Positions 18,539-63,962 of a DNA stretch of 64,000 bases are shown here, in pieces (position 1 is the stretch's first letter; every line of letters starts with the position of its first letter). The translations under genes were made by a program, and so were the position numbers. Source of the DNA: Synechococcus sp. C9 (GTDB lineage Bacteria > Cyanobacteriota > Cyanobacteriia > Gloeomargaritales > Gloeomargaritaceae); the NCBI RefSeq assembly GCF_022984075.1, contig NZ_JALAAD010000001.1:2212455-2276454 (forward strand), written 5' to 3'. Under the pieces are notes generated by a model that saw nothing but the letters and a program-made list of their open reading frames with translations, did no database searches and was not told the origin of the DNA.

Positions 18539-18735
18539 AACGCTACGTTGCCAACGAGTTGGTTTATCAACCTGACTTGTAGCGCCGGATTTGCTTTAGC
18601 CCATACAGACATAGCCCTACCGTTCTGCCACAAGTCGGCACAGTAGGAGCTATCAACCCTAGGAACGTTGTGACAATGCTCAAAACGCTGGGCGGTTTCG
18701 GCGAGCTCCATCGCCATCATCTCTTCTTGTAGCAT
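18532..18735 (-). CDS. small hypothetical frame upstream of the antiporter
   Basis: Up to 67 residues reading MAMELAETAQRFEHCHNVPRVDSS, then LWQNGRAMSVWAKANPALQVRLINQLVGN. The composition looks protein-like (helical N-terminus, LWQNGRAxSVWA). It ends 7 bases inside the antiporter start, which would allow coupling. No ribosome site stands out. I do not recognise it; it could be a remnant. Confidence 0.3.
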   Translation of the reverse strand: MLQEEMMAMELAETAQRFEHCHNVPRVDSSYCADLWQNGRAMSVWAKANPALQVRLINQLVGNVALC

Positions 18736-47932: not shown

Positions 47933-50900
47933 ATGGCAGATTACCTCGGCATGACCCCCACCATCATCGTCGGTCTCGGCGGCACGGGTAAGGAAGTGAT
48001 CATCAAAATCCGGCGCATGATTGTGGAAACCTACGGCAGTTTGGATGCCCTGCCGATTGTTTCTTTTCTGCATTTGGATACGGAGCAAAATGCCAAAGTA
48101 TCCGAACCCCAAACCGTCTTGAAACAGGACATTTCCCTGCGCCCGGTGGAACAAGTGTGGGCAAAAGTGGACAATGCCAAAGCCATTTTGAACCGCATCG
48201 CCGACTACGAATATCTCACCGAATGGTTTCCCCCGGAACTCGCCGGTACGGATTCCATTTTGGCGGGGGCGGGACAAATTCGTGCCCTGGGTAAATTCGC
48301 TTTTACGGTGAATTATCAAACCATTAAACAAGCCTTTGCCAATGCCCGTTCCCGGATTGTGGGGCATGAGAAATTTATGCTCGACCGCTGGGGTGTCCAA
48401 CTCGATAAAGGGGTGAATGTGTTTGTGATTTGCTCCCTAAGTGGGGGCACGGGTTCTGGGATGGTGTTAGACCTGGCTTATAATGTGCGGGATTGGGTGC
48501 CGCCTTCCGATTTGCCCCAAACCTGTGCCTTTCTTGTCCTCCCTGGGGCATTTTCCGGCTTGGGCGACCGGGTGATTGCCAATGCCTACGCCGCCTTGAG
48601 TGAACTCAACCACTATTCCCGTCCCAACACCCGTTTTGAAACCCAATATAGCAATAATATTACCGACCGGATTAGTAGCCAAAATGCCCAGGATACCCCC
48701 TTCGGCTTCTGCTATTTGGTGGGCAATAGCAATGATAAAGTCACCCTGCCCAATTTGGAATCGGTTTTGGAAATGGTGGCGCAAAATGTATTTTTAGATT
48801 TTTCCTCCGGGTTCAGCCAGTATAAAAAATTGGTGCGGGATAACATTCGCAAACATTGGGCGAGTCCTGACCCCTTGGGTTATCCCCAGAATTACATTAC
48901 GTTCGGGTTAGCCAGTATTCAATTTCCGGTACAACGGGTGCTGAATGCCTGTGCCTCCCGGTTGGCAGTGGCTCTGGCGGATTGGTGGAGCAACCCCACC
49001 CCGGCGCCGACGGCCATGCGGGATGTGATTAAAACGGAAATTTTACCCAATTTGGGCTTGGCAGAATCGGAAAACAACCATCAACTTTTGGATAATTTGA
49101 GTGTGGGGGACAACATGAAACCCTACAGCAAAGAGGTGGCGGATTGGGTGGCGGGTTTACGCAAAAAACGGAATGATTTGAATGTCCCCTTTGAGAATTT
49201 ATTGCGGTTTATTTCCGTAGAAGAAGAAAAATATCGGGTGCATTTTAACGATGCGGACAGCGACCCCCGCCGTTGGAGCGATTACTTCCAAAAAATGTGG
49301 GACAATCTCAACCGCATGATCCCCCAAAAAACCAAGGAATTGCGAGAAACCGTGGCGCAAATGGTGGAAGACCGCTTCCGGGGACCGAAATGGACTAGGC
49401 AATTTTTAGAAGTATTGCTGGAAGTTTTATTGGAATTTCGCACTACCTTTGACCAGTCCCGGCAGAAGGATTGGCTGGTGCGGGAGCGTTCAGCGAGTCA
49501 AGCCCTGCAAATTTTGCTCAAACAAATTGATAACCACGCCAAGCAGATGATGTTGCTGAATCGCAAAAAAGTCATTGATGACGATTTCAATGCGATCATG
49601 CAAGCCTTGGAGTCTATTTATGTTTCAAAAGTCGAGGTGAAAGCCCGTACCTTGGCGGCTCCGCTTTTGGATGCCCTGCGGGAAGAAACCCAACGGTTAA
49701 TTAATGACCTGAATAATTTTGATAAAAATTTGGAAACCCTGCGGCGGAATTTGGCGGAACGGGAGCAGGTCTATACCCGGGAAACCAGCACCCTGACGGT
49801 GAATGGAATTTTACTTTATGACCCCCAGGATATTGAACAGGTCTATCAAAAAACCCTGGCGAATCGGACAGAAACTGTCTATCAAAGTATCACCCAAGAT
49901 GTGTTAAATGGCATGGGCTGTCGGTTATTTGACCTCCATACCTTTGAGCATTTGCGGCAACAGGATTTGTACCAGCGGATTCTCAACCGTGCCATTGATG
50001 AATTTAGTACCAGTGAGCAATTGAAAATCTCCGTTGCCCAAAAATTTATTACCCAATATCCCACCCTGGAGCAACAGGAATCCCAGTTAAAAACCACCTT
50101 TGAAAAAAGTGAGGCGTTCTTGCGCTTCAGCCAGGAACAATCCCGTTTGGGTTGGGATGACCGCCCGGAAAAACGGCAAACACTGGTGGGGATTCAAGGG
50201 GGGAATAAGCCGACCGATCCCGCCGTTTCTGCCCTCTTGCCCCTCCTGCGAAAAAGTACCACGTTAACCGATAAAGATATTCGCCCTTATAACGACCCCC
50301 ATCATATTTATTTTGTGCGGGAAATTGGGGCGTTTCCCCTGCGGTTGATTGAAGGCATGGAGCGGATGCGTACCATCTACCGCACGGTTTCCCAAATGGA
50401 CCGCAATCCCCTGCATACCCACAAGGACAGTCAACGGTTTGGGGATATTATGCCCGCTTCGTCGGAAGAGATTCAGGTGCGGGAAAATCTGGTTTTAGGG
50501 CGGGTGTTTCAACTGGTCACTGCCTCGGAAAATCAAATTACGGGTTACACGGAAATCAAACTCAGCTATCAAGATAGTGCCACGGGTTTGGAACGAAATT
50601 TGAACCTGGGAACCACCTGGAAAGAGGCGGAAGACTATCTGTTAGCTGACCAAAACCGGCGGGCGAGGGAATTACTCAATGATGGGATTCAAAAAATATT
50701 GAAACAGGCGAATAATCGGGATAGCAAACGGGTATTGTACGAGCAATTAATGGGCTATTTGCAAGCATTTGAACAAACCATACCGGGGGGGCGGGACAAT
50801 CCTGAATACCAAGCGGTGGAAACTGCGATTAGTAATTGTGTGCGAACCCATCGCCTATTTGAACCGGGGGCAACTGCAACTCCGACGACGCCCAAACCGG

Positions 50901-51301
50901 CGGTTAAACCCCCGGCGGTATCCCCCAAACCCCCAGCCGTTACCCCTGCGGTTGTTGATGGGGCGGTGGAGAAATTTACCAAATTGGTAGAAGCCTGTTA
51001 CAAGGGGGGCAAAACTCCTTCGGAAAAAGAATTACAAATGTTAGATAAATTGCGGGAGAAATATGGTGTTACCCCGGAAATGGCGCAGGAAATTATTGCC
51101 CGGTTTCAACCCAAAAACCATGACCCAGAATTAGCAGGTTATGAATATGCCCTGATGTTCCGAGCCTGTCTGGAAAATGATGGGGAAATTGGTTTGGATG
51201 AACGGGCGCAACTTTTGGAACTTCAGGAGGAATTGGGATTGAGCGATGACCAGGTCGCCACCATTGAAGCCAACGTCCAGGAGGAATTGGGTCTCGGTTA
51301 A
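47933..51301 (+). CDS. Tubulin-like (Tubulin_2) giant GTPase-fold protein
   Basis: 1122 residues. The N-terminus has the nucleotide-binding start PTIIVGLGGTGKEVIIKIRR (G14-K20) and the tubulin signature SGGTGSG (170-176), preceded by VFVICSL and followed by MVLDLAYNVRDW. This fits the Tubulin_2 family. A long helical and coiled-coil centre (about 400-780) and a Pro-rich linker (about 985-1005) follow. Two C-terminal modules come last (VEKFTKLVEACYKGGKTPSEKELQ..., EYALMFRACLENDGEIGLDERAQL...), which look like paired acidic TerB-like or helical repeats. Function unknown; GTP-dependent polymerisation is an inference from the fold. Start ATG 47933 has an AGGA-like site. Confidence 0.8.
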   Translation: MADYLGMTPTIIVGLGGTGKEVIIKIRRMIVETYGSLDALPIVSFLHLDTEQNAKVSEPQTVLKQDISLRPVEQVWAKVDNAKAILNRIADYEYLTEWFPPELAGTDSILAGAGQIRALGKFAFTVNYQTIKQAFANARSRIVGHEKFMLDRWGVQLDKGVNVFVICSLSGGTGSGMVLDLAYNVRDWVPPSDLPQTCAFLVLPGAFSGLGDRVIANAYAALSELNHYSRPNTRFETQYSNNITDRISSQNAQDTPFGFCYLVGNSNDKVTLPNLESVLEMVAQNVFLDFSSGFSQYKKLVRDNIRKHWASPDPLGYPQNYITFGLASIQFPVQRVLNACASRLAVALADWWSNPTPAPTAMRDVIKTEILPNLGLAESENNHQLLDNLSVGDNMKPYSKEVADWVAGLRKKRNDLNVPFENLLRFISVEEEKYRVHFNDADSDPRRWSDYFQKMWDNLNRMIPQKTKELRETVAQMVEDRFRGPKWTRQFLEVLLEVLLEFRTTFDQSRQKDWLVRERSASQALQILLKQIDNHAKQMMLLNRKKVIDDDFNAIMQALESIYVSKVEVKARTLAAPLLDALREETQRLINDLNNFDKNLETLRRNLAEREQVYTRETSTLTVNGILLYDPQDIEQVYQKTLANRTETVYQSITQDVLNGMGCRLFDLHTFEHLRQQDLYQRILNRAIDEFSTSEQLKISVAQKFITQYPTLEQQESQLKTTFEKSEAFLRFSQEQSRLGWDDRPEKRQTLVGIQGGNKPTDPAVSALLPLLRKSTTLTDKDIRPYNDPHHIYFVREIGAFPLRLIEGMERMRTIYRTVSQMDRNPLHTHKDSQRFGDIMPASSEEIQVRENLVLGRVFQLVTASENQITGYTEIKLSYQDSATGLERNLNLGTTWKEAEDYLLADQNRRARELLNDGIQKILKQANNRDSKRVLYEQLMGYLQAFEQTIPGGRDNPEYQAVETAISNCVRTHRLFEPGATATPTTPKPAVKPPAVSPKPPAVTPAVVDGAVEKFTKLVEACYKGGKTPSEKELQMLDKLREKYGVTPEMAQEIIARFQPKNHDPELAGYEYALMFRACLENDGEIGLDERAQLLELQEELGLSDDQVATIEANVQEELGLG

Positions 51302-54374: not shown

Positions 54375-54659
54375 GGTCAACGGATTTTCATCCTCCACCG
54401 ACTTTCGCCGGAGGGCACATACCCCTGGAGAATCGGACTCTCCCTTTACCCACGAAGTTGACCGGACGCACCGGCTTCGCTAGGGTAGCTCCCGTCGAGT
54501 CTCTGCACCTTCCGGGTCAATCCCCGGCTTGGCTCAGGATTGCCATATCTACCGCAGTAGGGTTAGGTTTCCCTGAATTTGAGAGCATTCACTTGTGGGA
54601 TTTCTCCCCCAAGGCTCAATAGCTTAAGTCCGTAGCGTCTACCATTCCGCCACGCCCCC
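54339..54659 (-). tRNA. trnL-UAA: tRNA-Leu(UAA), split by a group I intron
   Basis: The 5' exon is 54659-54626 and the 3' exon 54388-54339 (84 nt joined). Acceptor GGGGGCG pairs with CGCCCCC, discriminator A. Anticodon stem ACGGA/TCCGT with loop CTTAAAA, anticodon UAA. The T arm is GAGGG-TTCAAGT-CCCTC-like. The long variable arm fits tRNA-Leu. The intron interrupts the loop after U34. The gene is on the minus strand and overlaps the end of the CDS at 53490-54374 by 36 bases. Confidence 0.92.
54389..54625 (-). other. group I intron in tRNA-Leu(UAA)
   Basis: 237 bases, reading AAGCTATTGAGCCTTGG at the 5' end on the minus strand and ending GGTGGAGGATG with the terminal G. Internal blocks such as GGATTGACCCGGAAGGTGCAG, GAGACTCGACGGGAG and GTCCG are like the P, Q, R and S elements of group I introns. 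The 5' exon ends in U, as needed for the U-G splice pair. No open frame is inside. This site carries the well-known ancient intron shared by cyanobacteria and plastids. Confidence 0.85.
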
Positions 54660-54713: not shown

Positions 54714-55757
54714 TTAAGATTTGTTCCCATCCACCAAACAGGCTTCTAAGTCTCGTAATAGGGATTTTTGATCCAAATTTTGCCCAATAAAAACCAATTG
54801 ATTTTGGGGCGGCACCGGTCGGTCATCCACATCCAAACTATAGCGTTTCCCGCTCAGTTGAAAAACATAACGGAGGCTACTGCGGTCAAACCACAAAACC
54901 CCCTTCGCTCGGAATACATTGGTCGGCAATTGATCCGTCAAAAAGAATTGAAATTTTTCCAGATGCAAAGGCCGTTCACTGGTAAACGAAACCGCCATAA
55001 AGCCATCATTTTCCAAGTGGTGGGGATGGTGATGATGATCATGATGATGGTGGTGATGATCCGGTTCTTCATGATTGTGATGGGAGTGCGCCTGATGCTC
55101 TTGGGCAATTAGTTCTGAGTGGGGCGCTTCCACCCCCAAAATCAAGGGGAGCGATACCTGTCCCTTAATCGTAGTTAAAATCCGGGCACCGGCTTTCATT
55201 TCACTGATCCGCCGGGTCAATTCCTGCACCCGTTCCGGGGAGACCAAATCCACCTTATTGAGTAAAATAATATCCCCGTAGGTAAGCTGACTCAAAGCCG
55301 CTTCGCTATTAAATAAATCCGGGGCAAACGCCGAGGCATCCACCACCGTTAAAATCGAATCCAACTGGGTCAAATCCCGCAGTTCCGTGCCCAAAAATGT
55401 CAGGGCAACGGGCAGGGGATCAGCCACCCCCGTGGTTTCCACCACCAAATAATCAATCCGTTCCTGCCGCTCCAAAACGTTATAAACCGCATCCACCAAA
55501 CCATCATTAATCGTGCAACAAATACAGCCATTGCTTAGTTCAATCATTCCCTCATCCACCGACACCAAAAGTTGGCTGTCAATGTTAATATCCCCAAATT
55601 CATTCACCAGCACCGCCACCTTCAAATCCTGCCGGTTTTGCAAAATATGGTTGAGCAACGTGGTTTTGCCACTGCCCAAAAAACCCGTGATAATCGTCAC
55701 CGGCAAACCCCGCTTGGGCAAATCCAATTTAATTGGCGCAGAGATAGATTGGGTCAT
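54714..55757 (-). CDS. COG0523/CobW-type GTPase, zinc chaperone
   Basis: 347 residues. Walker A GFLGSGKTTLLNHI (residues about 25-38), the metal-binding CXCC in NGCICCTI (about 77-84), ETTGVADPLP and LNKVDLV (G4). A histidine-rich stretch (about residues 222-245, HHHHHHDHHHH-like) precedes the C-terminal CobW domain. The family transfers zinc or other metals to client enzymes. ATG 55757 has GAGGG five bases upstream. A Zur/Fur-like box precedes it by 14 bases, so zinc limitation is the likely trigger. Confidence 0.9.
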   Translation of the reverse strand: MTQSISAPIKLDLPKRGLPVTIITGFLGSGKTTLLNHILQNRQDLKVAVLVNEFGDINIDSQLLVSVDEGMIELSNGCICCTINDGLVDAVYNVLERQERIDYLVVETTGVADPLPVALTFLGTELRDLTQLDSILTVVDASAFAPDLFNSEAALSQLTYGDIILLNKVDLVSPERVQELTRRISEMKAGARILTTIKGQVSLPLILGVEAPHSELIAQEHQAHSHHNHEEPDHHHHHHDHHHHPHHLENDGFMAVSFTSERPLHLEKFQFFLTDQLPTNVFRAKGVLWFDRSSLRYVFQLSGKRYSLDVDDRPVPPQNQLVFIGQNLDQKSLLRDLEACLVDGNKS

Positions 55758-55802: not shown

Positions 55803-58800
55803 TCAATTGTTGGGGGCAACCAGGCTTTCCCCTTCCAGGAGTCGGCGCGCCGCATCCAGCAGGGTTTCTTCCAGGTAGGGCTTGGTAAAGTAGGCGTTGG
55901 CGCCCAGTTGGATCGCCATTTGCCGGTGCCGTTCCGCCCCCCGGGAGGTGAGCATGGCAATGGGCAATCCTTTCAACGTTGCATCCCGGCGCACCTTGGA
56001 GAGGAGTTCCAGTCCGTCCATGCGGGGCATTTCAATATCGCAGAACATCAGGTCGCAGGGCAGACCATCCCGCAGTTTTTCCCAAGCTTCCTGCCCATCC
56101 CGGGCTTGTTCCACCCGGTAGCCCTTGTTGCTAAAGGTCATGGAGAGCATTTCCCGCACCACAATCGAGTCATCCACGATCAGCACGGTGGGTTCATCGG
56201 TGGTTTCCACTTCCGCTGGCATAGTCCCCTGCCATAGGGGCGCACTTGGGGGCGGCATTTGCCCCAACGCCAAATCCACCAACTCCAGGATGTCGGCGAT
56301 CATCATGATCCGCCCATCCCCCAAAATGGTTGCCCCGGCAATCCCCAGAGGTTTCTGTACTGGCCCGGAAAGCTGTTTGATCACCACCTCCTGCTCATTC
56401 AGCACCTGATCCACCTGAAACGCCACATACCGCCCCAGGCTTTGCACCACGACCACCGACACCCCCTCCTGGGTATTGGTGCCGAAAATACTGCCCCGCC
56501 CAATCATCCGCCCGTAGCGCAGGAGTTCGTTCAACGGGCGCAGGGGAATCCGTTGTCCCTGCCAATCCAAGGTCAATTTCCCATCCACCCCCGTGTGAAT
56601 CATTTCCTGGGTCACATCCACCGGCACATCCGCCACCCCATCCATCGGGAACGCCACCTGGGCATGGTTGACCACGCAGGGCAAGGACTTGGAAATGCTC
56701 AGGGTCAGGGGCAAACGGATGGTAAAGGTCGTGCCTTTGCCCAACTCCGAATCCACCACCACTGTCCCCCGAATCTCCGCCAAATTCTGGCGCACCACAT
56801 CCAGACCAACCCCCCGACCGGCAAATTCATCCGCCTGATCCTTAGTACTAAACCCAGGCATAAACAGCAGTTGGTAAATGTCCTGCTTGCTCATGGTCGC
56901 CGCCTGCTCCGGCGTAATCACCCCCCGCTCAATCGCCTTGGCTTTCACCCGGTCGGGATTGATCCCCACCCCATCATCGCTGACCGTGATCACCGTTTGG
57001 TTCCCCTGGTACGCCGCCCGAATCACAATCCGTCCCGCTGGGGATTGTCCAGCCGCCTGGCGTTGGGCAGGGAGTCCGATTCCATGCACAATGGCATTGT
57101 TGACCAAGTGGGTCATGGGGTCGGTGAGCTTTTCCAGGATCATCTTATCTACCAAGGTTTCCCGCCCTTCGATTTCCAGAGTCACCTGTTTGCCGCACTT
57201 GAGCGCCACGTTGCGGACTGCCCGGGGGAGCCGATCCGTCACCCGAGAAAAGGGTTCCATGCGGGCGTTGTTGATCCCTTCCTGCAAACCCTGGGTAATC
57301 CGTTGGAAACTGCGTACCACCTCATCAAAGGCTTCCACCATGAACCCGATGTCCTGGGCAGACTCCCGCACCCGCAATACCCGCTCTGCAATCTCCTGAG
57401 AAAGGGTGTGAAACCCGGTAAATCGGTCCATCTCCAGGGCATCAAATTCCGCCCCCGTGCTGTGCTGTGACCCCGCATTCCCCGGATTCAAGAAATTGCC
57501 TACCCCCGCGCCCCGACTGGCATTCAAGGCTCCTTCCAGCAGAGAACGCTCATACAAATCCTGCATCCGTTGGCTGAGGTCATTCAGTTGGTGCGCCTGG
57601 TGCAAAAGATTTTCCAAAAATTGCCGCAGTTGGTTTTGGTCTTCCTGCAAAGTGTTCCGGGAAACCACCAATTCCCCAATCAAATTGCTCAGGTTATCCA
57701 ACTGCCGGATGGGCACCCGCATGGTCTGATCCATCACCGGGGCACTGGTTGACCCACTGGTACGGGTTTCCGCCGCCGCTGGACTGGGTTCTGCCGCCTT
57801 CGCCGGGGGGGTGTTCGTCGTCCCAGGGGTCGAAGCCAAAGCCTCCTCCAGGCTGGTCAAATCGGTTGGTGCCGCCGCCAATAACTGCTCCAGGTCGCCG
57901 AAATCATTGTTATCTAAGGCAAATTCTTCCCCTGAAACGGGCAACTCCAAGTCTCCCAAATCCGGCAGTTCCAAATCCCCGGTTAAGTCGGGCAGGGCAG
58001 AATCGGAGAAATCCAGGTCATCACCCAAGTCTGTTTCCAATGCCGTTAAATCATCCAAATCCGCCAATTCTAGGGATTCATCCAAGGATTCGAGGCTCGT
58101 TTCTAGGGCATTCGAGGCAGACAAGTCATCAGATTCCGGCTGAGGCAAAGGTTCTTCCTGTTCTGACCCGACAAATGAAGAAAGGGCGGCTTCCAAATCG
58201 CTTCCCACATCACCAATCAGTCCTGAAGTTGTTAATGTCAATTCTTCAGGAATTGGCGGCACATCTTCAAAAGTTAATTCTCCCAATGTTTCAGTATCCA
58301 GGGTGACATCATCAAAATCAAATTCACCCAAGGTTCCCCCCGTTTCCTCGCTGAAATCTGAAGCGGGAATATCCCCTAGACTTTCCTCAAAATCAAACTC
58401 ACTACTAGCAGTTTCTAATTCTTGTTCTGCTTCCAACTCCGATTGAGGGGTAAAGGATTCAAAATCAAATTCACCCAAACTCCCTTCTGTCCCCTCACTG
58501 AAATCTAAGGTGGGAATATCGGCTAGGCTTTCTTCAAAATCAAACTCACTACTAGCAGTTTCTAATTCTTGTTCTGCTTCTAACTCTGATGGAGGGGTAA
58601 AGGATTCAAAATCAAATTCGCCCAAACTCCCTTCTGTCCCCTCGCTGAAATCCAAGGTGGGAATATCCCCTAGACTTTCCTCAAAATCAAACTCACTACT
58701 AGCAGTTTCTAATTCTTGTTCTGCTTCTAACTCTGATGGAGGGGTAAAGGATTCAAAATCAAATTCACCCAAACTCCCTTCTGTCCCCTCACTAAAATCC

Positions 58801-60524
58801 AAAGTGGGAATATCCCCTGGGGTTTCTTCAAAATCAAATTCATTACTGGCTAATTCTAATTCCTCTTGTAATCCTGCTTCCGGGGCAAACGATTCAAAAC
58901 TAAATTCACCCAAATCGCCACCCGACTCCTCACTAAAATCCAAAGTGGGAATATCGGCTAAAGTTTCCTCAAAGTCAAAATCGTTAGCGGTTTCTAGTTG
59001 TTGCTCTTCTGCCAACTCTGATTGAGGAGTAAAAGATTCAAAGTTCAGTTCACCCAAACTTCCCTCAGTTTCCTCACCGAAATCTAAAGTGGGAATATCC
59101 CCTAGACTTTCCTCAAAATCAAATTCACTACTAGCGGTTTCTAATTGTTGTTCTGCTTCCAACTCTGATTGAGGAGTGAAAGATTCAAAGTTCAGTTCAC
59201 CTAAAGTTTCCCCTGCTTCCTCGCTAAAATCCAGGCTGGGAATATCCCCTGGGGTTTCCTCAAAATCAAACTCGCTAGCAGTTTCTAATTCTTGTTCTGC
59301 TTCTAACTCCGATTGAGGGGTAAAAGATTCAAAGTCCAGTTCACCTAAAGTCCCTTCAGTTTCCCCATTGAAATCCAAAGTGGGAATATTGCCTGGGGTT
59401 TCTTCAAAACCAAATTCATCACTGGCGGTTTCTAACCCTTGTTCTAATCCTGCTTCCGGGGTAAACGATTCAAAACTAAATTCACCCAAATCGCCACCCG
59501 ATTCATCCCCAAAATCCAAAGTGGGAATATCGGTTAGGCTTTCCTCAAAATCAAATTCACTACTAGTAGTTTCTAATTGTTGTTCTGCTTCAGGACTAAA
59601 AGATGCAAAGTTAAACTCACTTTCATCCGACTCTGGCAGGGGTTCCAATTGGGACAAAGATTCCAAAGCCATCGCTTCTGCACTCGCCCCAGTATCCAAA
59701 AAGTTAAAATCTTCCTGCTCAGCCGTTGCTTCCCCTTCCTCCTCCAATGTGAACAATTCCGCCAGGGCACCCAAATCCTCAACCGTTTGCTCTCCCTCAA
59801 TGGCAACCCCCTCATTCCCTGAAAACTCTGCCCCTCCTTCTTCAGGCGTTAAGGAGAACAATTCTGCCAAAGAAGCCAACTCCTGGGTTGTATTGGCAAG
59901 TGGGACAGGTGCTTCTGCGGCTACCACTTCCCCAACCGTTGCCTGAGCATCCAAGCTGGCGAATAATTCCACCAAATCCAACTCTTCGCTCTCCGTTGCC
60001 ATGTCAACCGCCGTCACCTCCGGTTCAGGGGTGATTCCCGACACGGCTTCATCGGCAGGCGTTGCCTCCCATCCCGCCATGACCCCTTCCCCTTGCACCA
60101 AAATTTGCAATAGGGCTTCCAATTGGATAAAGACCGGCTGGTATTCCCGCACCACCTGCAAACCCATCTCTGAAGGAATACTCCCCTCCTGCTCTAGGTG
60201 GCTGACCAACCCCGTCAACGCCGCCACCCCTTGTTGGAACAACGCTACCATCTCAGGACTGAGGCACACCTGCCGCCCCACGCCCTCATCCCGCAGGATT
60301 TTCAGACAGTTCTCCAAGCCCAATGCCATCTCCTGTAGGGCATCCAACCCCAACATGGCGGCTCCCCCCTTGATCGAATGGGCGGCTCGAAACCAATCAC
60401 TGACCTGCTCCGGGTCGGTCAGGGGTTGCCCCATCGCCGGGATCGCCTGATAGAGGGTCGCCAGGTGTTCCTGGGTTTCCTGTAGAAAATACCCCAGAAT
60501 CCGTTGTTGTTGAGCGGCATCCAT
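55803..60524 (-). CDS. hybrid CheA-like histidine kinase with C-terminal receiver
   Basis: 1573 residues, far above the usual 650-1000. Hpt domain (1-120) with the phosphorylated His49 in AAHSIKGGAAMLGL. An acidic region (about 160-910) contains the tandem repeats. The kinase has a dimerisation helix, N box DPMTHLVNNAIVHGIG, G1 VSDDGVGINPDRV and G2 GRGVGLDVV. CheW-like domain, then a receiver with LIVDDSIVVREML (Asp), DIEMPRMDG (phospho-Asp) and Lys in ANAYFTKPY. Last gene of the chemosensory operon. The likely output is pilus control or phototaxis; start ATG 60524. Confidence 0.9.
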   Translation of the reverse strand: MDAAQQQRILGYFLQETQEHLATLYQAIPAMGQPLTDPEQVSDWFRAAHSIKGGAAMLGLDALQEMALGLENCLKILRDEGVGRQVCLSPEMVALFQQGVAALTGLVSHLEQEGSIPSEMGLQVVREYQPVFIQLEALLQILVQGEGVMAGWEATPADEAVSGITPEPEVTAVDMATESEELDLVELFASLDAQATVGEVVAAEAPVPLANTTQELASLAELFSLTPEEGGAEFSGNEGVAIEGEQTVEDLGALAELFTLEEEGEATAEQEDFNFLDTGASAEAMALESLSQLEPLPESDESEFNFASFSPEAEQQLETTSSEFDFEESLTDIPTLDFGDESGGDLGEFSFESFTPEAGLEQGLETASDEFGFEETPGNIPTLDFNGETEGTLGELDFESFTPQSELEAEQELETASEFDFEETPGDIPSLDFSEEAGETLGELNFESFTPQSELEAEQQLETASSEFDFEESLGDIPTLDFGEETEGSLGELNFESFTPQSELAEEQQLETANDFDFEETLADIPTLDFSEESGGDLGEFSFESFAPEAGLQEELELASNEFDFEETPGDIPTLDFSEGTEGSLGEFDFESFTPPSELEAEQELETASSEFDFEESLGDIPTLDFSEGTEGSLGEFDFESFTPPSELEAEQELETASSEFDFEESLADIPTLDFSEGTEGSLGEFDFESFTPQSELEAEQELETASSEFDFEESLGDIPASDFSEETGGTLGEFDFDDVTLDTETLGELTFEDVPPIPEELTLTTSGLIGDVGSDLEAALSSFVGSEQEEPLPQPESDDLSASNALETSLESLDESLELADLDDLTALETDLGDDLDFSDSALPDLTGDLELPDLGDLELPVSGEEFALDNNDFGDLEQLLAAAPTDLTSLEEALASTPGTTNTPPAKAAEPSPAAAETRTSGSTSAPVMDQTMRVPIRQLDNLSNLIGELVVSRNTLQEDQNQLRQFLENLLHQAHQLNDLSQRMQDLYERSLLEGALNASRGAGVGNFLNPGNAGSQHSTGAEFDALEMDRFTGFHTLSQEIAERVLRVRESAQDIGFMVEAFDEVVRSFQRITQGLQEGINNARMEPFSRVTDRLPRAVRNVALKCGKQVTLEIEGRETLVDKMILEKLTDPMTHLVNNAIVHGIGLPAQRQAAGQSPAGRIVIRAAYQGNQTVITVSDDGVGINPDRVKAKAIERGVITPEQAATMSKQDIYQLLFMPGFSTKDQADEFAGRGVGLDVVRQNLAEIRGTVVVDSELGKGTTFTIRLPLTLSISKSLPCVVNHAQVAFPMDGVADVPVDVTQEMIHTGVDGKLTLDWQGQRIPLRPLNELLRYGRMIGRGSIFGTNTQEGVSVVVVQSLGRYVAFQVDQVLNEQEVVIKQLSGPVQKPLGIAGATILGDGRIMMIADILELVDLALGQMPPPSAPLWQGTMPAEVETTDEPTVLIVDDSIVVREMLSMTFSNKGYRVEQARDGQEAWEKLRDGLPCDLMFCDIEMPRMDGLELLSKVRRDATLKGLPIAMLTSRGAERHRQMAIQLGANAYFTKPYLEETLLDAARRLLEGESLVAPNN
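58310..59635 (-). repeat. in-gene tandem repeats, about 9 units of 45 codons
   Basis: Within the CheA-like gene the segment reads roughly DFEESLGDIPTLDFSE then LGEFDFESFTPQSELEAEQ, repeated nine times with the IPTLDF hallmark. Units are acidic and low in hydrophobic residues. Several adjacent units are near-identical at DNA level (e.g. around 58390-58730), so slippage or recombination has expanded or homogenised them recently. Confidence 0.9.
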
Positions 60525-60542: not shown

Positions 60543-62873
60543 TTAGAGGGGTTCGGTCGTACCTAAACGGAACCGTTCCACCGAGGCTTGCAACCCTCGG
60601 GATACTTCCGCCAGATTTTGCAACGCAACGGAAACCCGTTGGGACTCCTGGGAGGTTTCCTGGGCGGTCAATTCCACCGACTGCATCACCTGGGTGACGT
60701 TCCGGGATACCTCGGTCTGCCGCACCGTGTCCGCTGTAATGGACTGCACAAGCGCATCAATTTGTTGGGACACTTGAATAATTTCCTCCAAGGCTCGCTT
60801 CGCCTGTTCCGCCACCCTTGTCCCCCGAATCACCTCCTGAGTACCTTCTTCCATAGCGGTCATCACCAAGCCGGTTTCCCCCTGAATCTGGAGCACGATT
60901 TGTTCGATTTCTTTGGATGCCCGACTGGTGCGATCCGCCAACTGCCGCACCTCGTCCGCCACGATGGCAAACCCCCGCCCCGCTTCCCCCGCCTTAGCCG
61001 CCTCAATACTGGCATTCAAAGCCAATAGGTTGGTGCGTTGGGCAATTTGACCAATCGAGTTCACAATCTTGTTGATCTCCTGGGTGGACTCCGCCAGCCG
61101 TTTCACCTTGCGGGTGGTTTCCGCCACCGATTCCCGAATGCTCTGAATCCCCGCCACGGTTTGATCCACCGCTTCCCCACCCCGTTGGGCAGTTTCCGAG
61201 GCGGTGCGGGCGACCTCAGCGGCTTCCCGGGCACTCTCCGCCACCCGTTGGATGGAGTCGGTCATCATCTGCACGGAGTTCAACGTACCCGCCAATTCCT
61301 GGGCTTGCCGCAGGGCATTGGCAGAAAGTTCCCGAGCGAAAAATTCACTGTCCGTCGCCGCTCGACCCACTTGCAAGGTGGAGGTTTTCACCTGTTGCAC
61401 AATCTGACGAATGTTTTGAATAATCAAGTTAAACGAGTCGGCAACGGCTCCCAAAATATCCGCTGAAACCTCCGCTTGTACCGTCAAATCCCCCCGGGCG
61501 GCTCCCTCCACGTCATCCAGCAGACGAATCACCTGCCGTTGCAAATCCTCCCGGGAACGCTCCACTTCCTCCGCCTTATCCTGCAATTCCTTGAACCGCT
61601 CCCGAATTTGGGTGAGCATTTGGTTAAAAGCTAAAGCCGCTTCCGCAAAGTCATCCTGACCCACCACGCTTAGGGAGGACTGGAATTCCCCCCGCCCTAG
61701 GGCTTCGCAACTCAAACGCAATTCCTCGGAAAATTGGCGCACCCGTTGGGACTTCACCCCACCCCCACCACCTCCTAGGGCAACGGCGGCTCCCCCACCC
61801 AGCACGGCGGCCAAGACCGCTCCCAGAGGCTTGTTGGGTACGGCAAAAGCGGCTCCCCCCGCCAATACCGCCACCACCGCCCCGGTGAGCAGGGATTTGG
61901 GCAACCCCCCCGCCGGTTTCCGCATCGGTGCCATGGGTACCACCACGTTGTTGGGGGTAGAGGCTGGAGTATTTTTCAAACTGGGGCGGGTAACTTGGGT
62001 TTGGGTTGAGGGTACCACGCTCAGCGCATCCGTATTGTCCACCTGGGAACGGGGAGTGCCCCCGGTCAAGGGGTCGTCATCGTCGGTGGTGGGGGTGGAT
62101 TGAAAACTAAATAAACCCGGTTCTGCCGCCGGTTCTACCCAATTGGCACTGCGCCCCGTCCGAGCCTCCAAATCCATCAAAAGGGTATCCCCCTGGTCAT
62201 CCTCGTCCTGAGGTGAGCCAGCCTCGCCAAAATTATCGGCAAAGTTATCCGCAAAACTGTCGGTCTGCTGGGCAAAGGGTTGGGGCTGGGGGCGACTGGG
62301 GAAGGGGGCATTCATAATCAGGGTGTGATCGCCGCTAGGTTCCGGTTCCTCCGGCATCTCCACATCGGTAAAAGGGTTGAAACCACCCATAGTCGGTTCC
62401 TCATCCTCCAAGGCACTGCTCGCCGCAAACGGGTTCGCATCAGGGGTAAAAGGATGATCTGCCTCGGACTGTTCAGGCAAGACCCAGGTTTCCGATGGGG
62501 AATTTTGCCCCGCCTCCAAATCCGCCACCGCAAAGGGATTGTCCCCCCCGTCCCCATTCATGTTCAGGGGTGCGGTGAAATCGTCCTGAGCGGGTTGGTG
62601 CGCCAAATACTGATTCACATCATTAATACCATTGCGGGCGTATTCCACCAATTCCGGGTCGTCGGTCAACGCCATCACCCGTTGGTAATGCTCCCGTGCC
62701 TGGGCATAATTCTGGGTACACAGATAAATATGTCCCCGCAGGAGGTGCAGGTTGGGCATTTCGTCATATTGTTTCAGCAGACTGTCGGCAATCGCCCCCG
62801 CCTCCGCATAATCACCCGTGACATAGGCACTGGTCGCACGTTCATAATCACTAAGATAATTGCTGGTTGCCAT
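60543..62873 (-). CDS. methyl-accepting chemotaxis protein, PilJ-like
   Basis: 776 residues. The N-terminus is TPR-like ([28 protein letters not shown], about 1-105), followed by a disordered acidic region (120-330). A pair of membrane segments ([21 protein letters not shown] and [18 protein letters not shown], about 325-375) is followed by HAMP-like segments and the signalling hairpin with [42 protein letters not shown]. No GAF chromophore domain, so it is not a PixJ-type photoreceptor. Unusually, the N-terminal TPR replaces a periplasmic sensor. It lies 18 bp upstream of the CheA gene. Confidence 0.9.
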
Positions 62874-63052: not shown

Positions 63053-63580
63053 TCACGCAACGGTATGCCACAGGTGCGGAGCGACTAAGGCTTGGGGTTC
63101 GAGCAACCGCACCACCGTCCCGTCGGCGAGGAGCCATTCCCCCTGGACCAGCAATTTGCCCTGGGGGCGGTCTTCTCCACTCAAGGGGGGGCGCAACTGC
63201 CGGGGGTCAAGGAACTCGGCTCCCACCACCCGGTCAATGGCTAACCCACAGGTCACCCCCTGATCCGTCACCACAATCACGGAAAGTTCCGGTCGGTTGG
63301 TATTCAAAGGGGGGAGCCCCAAAAATTGCCCCAAATCGCCTATCCAAATCACCTGCCCCCGCCAGTTGTAGGCACCCATCACCACCGGCGGCACATTCGG
63401 CACACTACTGATCCGGTCAGGACTCATCGCCGCCACCTCCTGCACCCCCATCGCCGGCAGGGCAAATTCTTCCCCAGAGGACAAGACAAACCGCAGGTAT
63501 AGCTCCCCCTGCACCCCGATGCCCTGGTCAGCGGCACGTTCCCCGGACCCATCCCAAAAACCAGCAACAGCATCCACCAT
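63053..63580 (-). CDS. CheW-like adaptor, PilI-like
   Basis: 175 residues from ATG 63580 (MVDAVAGFWDGSGERAADQ). The CheW domain shows RFVLSSGEEFALPAMGVQEV, VVMGAYNWRGQVIWIGDLG and LAIDRVVGAEFLDP, then the C-terminal LVQGEWLLADGTVVRLL. It links the MCP to the kinase. It starts 4 bases before the end of the response regulator gene, so the genes are a tight operon. Confidence 0.88.
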   Translation of the reverse strand: MVDAVAGFWDGSGERAADQGIGVQGELYLRFVLSSGEEFALPAMGVQEVAAMSPDRISSVPNVPPVVMGAYNWRGQVIWIGDLGQFLGLPPLNTNRPELSVIVVTDQGVTCGLAIDRVVGAEFLDPRQLRPPLSGEDRPQGKLLVQGEWLLADGTVVRLLEPQALVAPHLWHTVA

Positions 63581-63584
63581 AGAC

Positions 63585-63962
63585 CTATCCTTTGGGGGTT
63601 CGTAAAAGATGGCGGACCGTACCCAAAAGGTCTTGCGGTTCAAAGGGTTTGACAATGTAGGCATCCGCCCCCTGTTTCAAACCCCAATGCTTATCAAAAG
63701 TTTCCCCCTTAGAGGAACACATCAACACCGGCACCTGTTTTGTTTGGGGATACTCCCGCAACTGCCGCACCAATTGGTAGCCATTCATGCGGGGCATGAC
63801 CACATCCATCACCACCACATCGGGAATTTGCCCCCCCTGTACCATCGCCAGGGCTTCATCCCCATCCCCGGCGGCGAGAACCTCCCAGCCATCCTGTTCC
63901 AGCAGGGAAACCATCATCTCCCGCTGTGCCTTTTGGTCTTCGACCACCAACACGGTTGCCAT
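63585..63962 (-). CDS. CheY-like response regulator, PilH-like
   Basis: 125 residues, a single receiver domain. The acidic pair is in VLVVEDQKAQREMM, the phospho-Asp in VVVMDVVMPRMNGYQL, Thr/Ser in LMCSSKG and the conserved Lys in AYIVKPF. No output domain, so it acts by protein contact, presumably on the pilus motors. It is the first gene of the operon in the window; upstream sequence is cut by the window end. ATG 63962. Confidence 0.9.
   Translation of the reverse strand: MATVLVVEDQKAQREMMVSLLEQDGWEVLAAGDGDEALAMVQGGQIPDVVVMDVVMPRMNGYQLVRQLREYPQTKQVPVLMCSSKGETFDKHWGLKQGADAYIVKPFEPQDLLGTVRHLLRTPKG

Follow-up and report, generated by a model that had tools for sequence, protein, structure and literature searches.

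An acidic, phenylalanine-rich tandem array in the P1-P3 linker of a cyanobacterial PilL-like CheA, a candidate multivalent docking tether

The window, by which we mean the whole 64-kb stretch of DNA analysed here, contains an operon-like row of chemosensory genes on the minus strand. From open reading frames (ORFs) and Pfam matches these run in the order receiver, CheW, chemoreceptor (MCP) and CheA. The genes, and the domains of the CheA, are as follows:

55803..60524, minus strand: CheA of the PilL-like kind, 1573 aa (ORF with Pfam Hpt, H-kinase_dim, HATPase_c, CheW and Response_reg matches)
60228..60500, minus strand: Hpt domain (P1) of CheA, aa 9-99 (PF01627, E=1.3e-14; confidently modelled helices)
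57558..57728, minus strand: dimerisation domain (P3) of CheA, aa 933-989 (PF02895, E=3.1e-9)
56703..57113, minus strand: HATPase domain (P4) of CheA, aa 1138-1274 (PF02518, E=5.8e-19)
56274..56672, minus strand: CheW-like domain (P5) of CheA, aa 1285-1417 (PF01584, E=1e-15)
55848..56186, minus strand: C-terminal receiver of CheA, aa 1447-1559 (PF00072, E=6.8e-26)
60543..62873, minus strand: partner chemoreceptor (PilJ-like) with TPR, an acidic NPF-bearing segment, HAMP and MCP signalling domain (Pfam and composition)
63053..63664, minus strand: CheW (PilI-like; PF01584, E=2.2e-27)
63585..63962, minus strand: stand-alone receiver (PilH-like; PF00072, E=1.8e-29)

The order of Hpt, dimerisation, HATPase and CheW domains, all over the Pfam cut-off, together with the adjoining CheW, MCP and receiver genes places this protein in the Tfp/PilL class of CheA, and the receiver at its C-terminus makes it a hybrid CheA. 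It is of the type IV pilus (PilL) kind, and by analogy with its Synechocystis homologues would act in pilus control. The nearest named relatives in the genome collection were Gloeomargaritales cyanobacterium VI4D9 (99% identity in the kinase) and Gloeomargarita sp. SKYG116 (86%). The segment between P1 and P3 matched neither the P2 nor the CheY-binding model of Pfam (E up to 0.001), so we infer, rather than read from a domain match, that this linker might work in a P2-like way.

Several neighbours of the CheA gene have features of their own. In the partner MCP, the acidic segment (aa 85-330) is of low complexity, carries several NPF motifs and phenylalanines, and lies between the TPR and the membrane/HAMP parts. 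Directly downstream of CheA, 54714-55757 (minus strand) encodes a GTPase with a long His-rich stretch, HHHHHHDHHHHPHH, which looks to be of the CobW/metallochaperone type. The upstream neighbour of the row, just past the window end (L115:970-1827, minus strand), has the look of a double bacterial-microcompartment shell protein, presumably CcmO-like as judged by eye, and not of PilG. Elsewhere in the window there was a Group I intron match at 54422-54635 (minus strand; RF00028, 71.5 bits), whose host gene is possibly an interrupted tRNA (ARAGORN found no tRNA in the window), a fluoride riboswitch match at 18637-18724 (minus strand; RF01734, 41.2 bits), and a 1122-aa protein at 47933-51301 (plus strand) with, by eye, an N-terminal tubulin/FtsZ-like GGTG nucleotide-binding look.

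The Hpt and dimerisation domains of CheA are separated by a linker of 834 aa, which is 53% of the protein. Its features are:

58317..59561, minus strand: tandem array of nine acidic Phe-rich units, aa 322-736 (TRF 58312-59591; unit table)
58404..58844, minus strand: units 6-8, near-identical, aa 561-707, 92-93% DNA identity (unit comparison)
57801..60146, minus strand: K/R-free stretch of 782 residues, most of the linker (composition)
59856..59882, minus strand: conserved linker motif ELASLAELF, aa 215-223, the LAELF form of LADLF
59751..59777, minus strand: second copy of this motif, LGALAELF, aa 250-258 (motif scan)
57735..58316, minus strand: C-terminal part of the linker, aa 737-930, with a DFGDLEQLL motif (ORF and composition)

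The nine-unit array is real. TRF reported it at 58312-59591 with a period of 147 bp x 8.8 (score 1317) and also of 432 bp x 2.9 (score 1420), and it is the sole array with a score of at least 100 in all 64 kb. The units follow one another head-to-tail and in frame with lengths of 47, 48, 49, 48, 47, 49, 49 and 49 aa, then a shortened ninth, and a degenerate half-unit (aa 302-321) directly precedes them. In the protein they appear as nine IP[TS]LDF/IPASDF blocks (aa 333-719) and nine GE[FL].F[ED] blocks, and the best self-match score of the linker was 110, whereas 20 shuffled versions of it scored 6 or less. The 415 aa of the array use only 12 residue types, without K, R, H, W, Y, V, C or M, and include 97 E, 35 D and 49 F; with 132 D/E and no K/R the net charge is -132. 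The initial annotation had rightly recognised a CheA-like kinase of the PilL kind with nine acidic units between its Hpt and kinase domains. Its estimate of about 45 residues per unit was too short, and the repeats do not double the protein as it had held, since the array makes up 26% of CheA (415/1573 aa) and only the linker as a whole reaches about half. The near-identity it described holds for units 6-8 and not for the array overall, in which unit pairs share 66-93% DNA identity with a mean of 78% and reach 92-93% only among these three.

The absence of basic residues extends well beyond the array: no other K/R-free run in the window, whatever the reading frame, exceeds 119 residues. Without K or R there are no tryptic sites, and these 782 residues would therefore be invisible to ordinary proteomics. 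By charge-hydropathy, a coarse rule, the array falls on the disordered side. In an AlphaFold2 model of aa 1-770 built from three sequences, the Hpt region was confident, with helices that run to about residue 153, whereas the chain had no confident fold from aa 148 onward and pLDDT block means were 23-41 beyond the helices. A model of aa 691-1573 had a mean pLDDT of 33.5 and was poor even on the conserved kinase core; because the core fails too and the alignment is shallow (three sequences), the low linker pLDDT is weak evidence for disorder. Charge-hydropathy and pLDDT point the same way, and the linker with its array is probably disordered.

We compared the linker across seven Gloeomargarita genomes including that of the window, with one genome per species. 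The closest genome, VI4D9, has eight units at a kinase dS of 0.146 and dN of 0.007, and thus copy number varies between close genomes, each of which stands for a species; the initial annotation had thought variation between strains probable. The terminal units are orthologous, with 91% DNA identity between the first units (W1-V1) and 83% between the last (W9-V8), and the inner units are rearranged; unit 4 here, for example, is closest to unit 7 of VI4D9 (89%). G001 (L017) had a 177-bp, 59-aa unit with a common core (FEETLTDIPALDF, LGEFDFES) and a different spacer, as well as a stretch reading N. G006 (L018) had at least one core copy, after which its contig ends. The acidic linkers of congeners G002-G004 (436-511 aa) and of G007 from the sister genus (347 aa) contained neither the core motif nor an array.

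The window's genome and VI4D9 also have a second CheA with two Hpt domains and a tandem array of its own (L022:6202-6749 and L023:6074-6715). This array consists of 135-bp (45-aa) SFWEEIGEL..SSFWEE units, x 4.1 and 4.8 respectively, so that one genome has two CheAs, each with its own unrelated aromatic-acidic array. The second CheA resembles the main one in having a tandem array and differs in its Trp motif, in the location of the array between two Hpt domains, and in its kinase, which is 40% identical.

Divergence among units was estimated by the Nei-Gojobori method from codons 1-38 in each of units 1-8. The mean dS between units was 0.98 (26/28 pairs; two saturated) and the mean dN was 0.146 (28 pairs), for a dN/dS of about 0.15. 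Because the between-unit dS of 0.98 far exceeds the kinase dS of about 0.15, most units predate the split from VI4D9, and the suggestion that all units had expanded recently is rejected. Concerted homogenisation of whole arrays in each genome was likewise not supported, as within-genome identity (78/80%) equals between-genome identity (80%). The low dN relative to the high dS indicates that protein change among the units has been held back. F3, F5, F17 and F30 were invariant in 17/17 units of the two genomes. F3, F5 and F30 were encoded by TTT in all 17, codon change being seen only at F17 and F33, and TTT also outnumbers the other Phe codon elsewhere in the CheA gene and in two further genes. 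Since the codons are invariant too, the invariance of F3, F5 and F30 alone is not proof of selection, recent copying being a possible source of the same pattern.

Of 195 genomes searched, 165 had an orthologue of the kinase (E up to 1e-150). We assembled 86 loci, consisting of the window, seven others of its family, and 78 of the class hand-picked for spread from part of the 165, skipping ORFs that looked cut by contig ends. Removing six by a strict kinase pattern left 80, and removing four without Hpt in the same ORF left 76 in which a single ORF encodes both Hpt and dimerisation domain. These 76 fused linkers spanned 347-1969 aa, a 5.7-fold range with a median of 1103.5, and had a mean D+E of 25% (range 18-30%), K+R of 2.7% and F of 4.5%. 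Linker self-match scores reached at least 20 in 25/76, and shuffles (20 each) never scored above 9. Tandem DNA arrays (TRF score at least 150, period at least 24) were present in 29/76, the three from Gloeomargarita included, and every period was divisible by three.

The units of these 29 arrays were mostly unlike between lineages. For example, the unit of L063 has 33 aa and contains FDALLGGGSELDFDLGMESSELTES, that of L047 has 93 aa and contains ADLLDFSESSTDLSIEEASLEESLNFDALMG, and that of L093 has 25 aa and contains EPESQETADEDLEFDLDAFN. The Gloeomargarita core [IV]P[TAS][LS]DF occurred in 0/76 other rows of the 80 compared. Neither repeat number nor sequence is common to the distant homologues, and with both differing, the objection that the initial annotation had foreseen to a recent expansion, shared repeats in distant relatives, did not arise. 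Array presence on the kinase tree required a minimum of 19 state changes (12 when restricted to the 16 strongest arrays), by a quick method that gave long-branch warnings. Short patterns were more widely shared. L..LF was enriched 4.4-fold over shuffled linkers (above the shuffle mean in 73/76) and [DE][FLI].[DE][LFI] 3.3-fold (74/76), linkers without arrays included and with counts inflated by tandem duplication; LADLF was present in 50/76. F-x-F was not supported as a class-wide motif, its F.F spacing being at 0.89 of that in shuffled linkers. Linker length rose with the count of two-component-like candidates (rho 0.70) and nearly as strongly with genome size (0.67), and the partial correlation of 0.34 with phylogeny uncontrolled is a hint only. 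In L133 (G166) the orthologue's linker is broken by an opposite-strand ORF that by eye is transposase-like.

Some lineages carry the two halves of PilL on separate proteins. The kinase ORFs of G064 and G149 lack an Hpt, and their dimerisation domain is preceded by just 363 and 257 aa, respectively; their Hpt is on a separate ORF elsewhere in the genome (309 and 314 aa), together with further sequence. In G040 the halves are adjacent ORFs and the kinase tail is roughly 360 aa by subtraction. No arrays were seen by eye in the kinase tails of G064 and G149 or in part of that of G040. Four other candidates were set aside as split cases: the kinase ORF of G017 has its own Hpt, the kinase of G142 is not cleanly orthologous, G014 has a frame break inside the linker, and in G166 the inserted transposase-like ORF interrupts it. 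Long linkers thus go with covalent tethering of the Hpt in these few cases, and a single fused linker, at 347 aa, is comparable in length to the split tails.

Our leading explanation, to which we give nearly even chances, is that the linker is a disordered P1-P3 tether that doubles as a multivalent docking surface at the canonical P2 position. A hyperacidic, basic-free linker would let the phospho-carrying Hpt reach its own kinase core and receivers, while displaying many short acidic-hydrophobic docking motifs in place of a single folded P2. Each unit has two candidate docking motifs, EFDFEE..xDIPTLDF and LGEFDFESFTP, for which PilH/PilG-type receivers or the kinase core would be the possible partners. 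PATAN-REC proteins are further candidates in this genome, which has five PF14332 matches, four of them above the cut-off. Unit number would set both the reach and the number of sites, and may shift by unequal recombination between units, such that each lineage would rebuild its own array with composition and motif rules kept constant. The free change of unit number, order and sequence speaks against a folded domain that has a single, fixed partner. Since the unit motif is bound to the genus (0/76), docking to a conserved partner would demand very loose rules. Overall, the linker has the appearance of a flexible tether that evolves quickly and offers many small binding sites.

Length and charge could matter alone, in a purely entropic or polyelectrolyte tether for which repeats are simply an easy way to gain length. 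All 76 fused orthologues do have a long acidic linker, and the kinase tails of the split lineages are short relative to the fused median. We nonetheless consider this unlikely: the unit sequence is constrained even though linker length varies 5.7-fold, short motifs are enriched, and one fused linker falls within the length range of the split tails. Together, unit constraint and motif enrichment speak against a pure spacer and favour binding sites.

The same two observations bear on neutral or nearly neutral minisatellite growth, in which recombination would expand repeats within a disordered region where any acidic insertion is tolerated as long as it keeps the frame. The coming and going of arrays on the kinase tree fits such growth, as do the mostly unlike units across lineages and the difference within one genus code between L037, with a 77-aa array, and L038 and L039, with none. 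However, units have been kept over a dS of about 1 with a dN of 0.15, and the L..LF and acid-hydrophobic patterns are enriched in 73-74 of the 76 linkers, array-free ones included, and we regard neutral growth as improbable.

We give little credence to a condensate scaffold, in which aromatic stickers on an acidic chain would cluster chemosensory proteins, for example at the cell pole. Phenylalanines are regularly spaced along the acidic, basic-free chain, a low-complexity segment of the partner receptor is likewise acidic and contains phenylalanines, and the SFWEEIGEL units of the second CheA form another aromatic-acidic array in the same genome, but a net charge of -132 over 415 aa opposes self-association unless there is a basic partner, and 0/4 operon products are basic. 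Members of Gloeomargarita are known for intracellular carbonates; calcium or carbonate binding was rejected as the main idea, as acidic linkers are found in 76/76 orthologues and the repeats are missing in three congeners.

More tentatively, docking on a disordered tether may extend to cyanobacterial Tfp-class CheAs in general. The folded P2 would there be replaced by a multivalent, disordered, nearly basic-free linker of up to about 2000 residues, in which unlike arrays with a common acidic-hydrophobic grammar are repeatedly gained, lost and rebuilt, making the number of docking sites and the reach of the Hpt a fast-evolving tuning knob. If so, a phosphorelay can give up a folded docking domain in favour of a multivalent linker that can be tuned, and a natural series exists in which reach, site number and signalling could be compared: zero, eight and nine units plus unlike arrays within one genus, linkers of 347-1969 aa across the class, and split versus fused PilL.

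A literature search of partial coverage, with most subscription papers outside it, returned no description of acidic arrays in CheA linkers. A survey of CheA reports very long dimerisation domains and additional receivers for cyanobacterial members of the Tfp class, as well as domain gains and P2 duplications; in its main text 'disorder' and 'repeat' occur 0 times and 'linker' once, so acidic arrays are not treated there under those words (PMC10782961). The CheA described here is like the canonical proteins of E. coli and T. maritima in its order of P1, P3, P4 and P5 and, in position, in the P1-P3 segment where receivers dock in those proteins (PMC10782961), and is unlike them in having no Pfam P2, an acidic and repetitive linker, and an added C-terminal receiver. 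Synechocystis PilL/TaxAY3 (Hik36 + Hik43, slr0073 + slr0322) shares the kinase type and the CheW, MCP and receiver partners (PMC7656254, PMC7076178). In two-hybrid tests reported for it, PilL-N (Hik36) interacts with PilL-C (Hik43), and both interact with the receiver Rre6/PilG; the N-terminal region of Hik43 is required (PMC7656254). These results make docking of receivers or of the kinase plausible for the linker here. The Hpt and kinase of Synechocystis PilL are separate proteins (PMC7656254, PMC7076178), as in G064 and G149, whereas in the CheA described here they form one chain, joined by an 834-aa linker with a nine-unit array.
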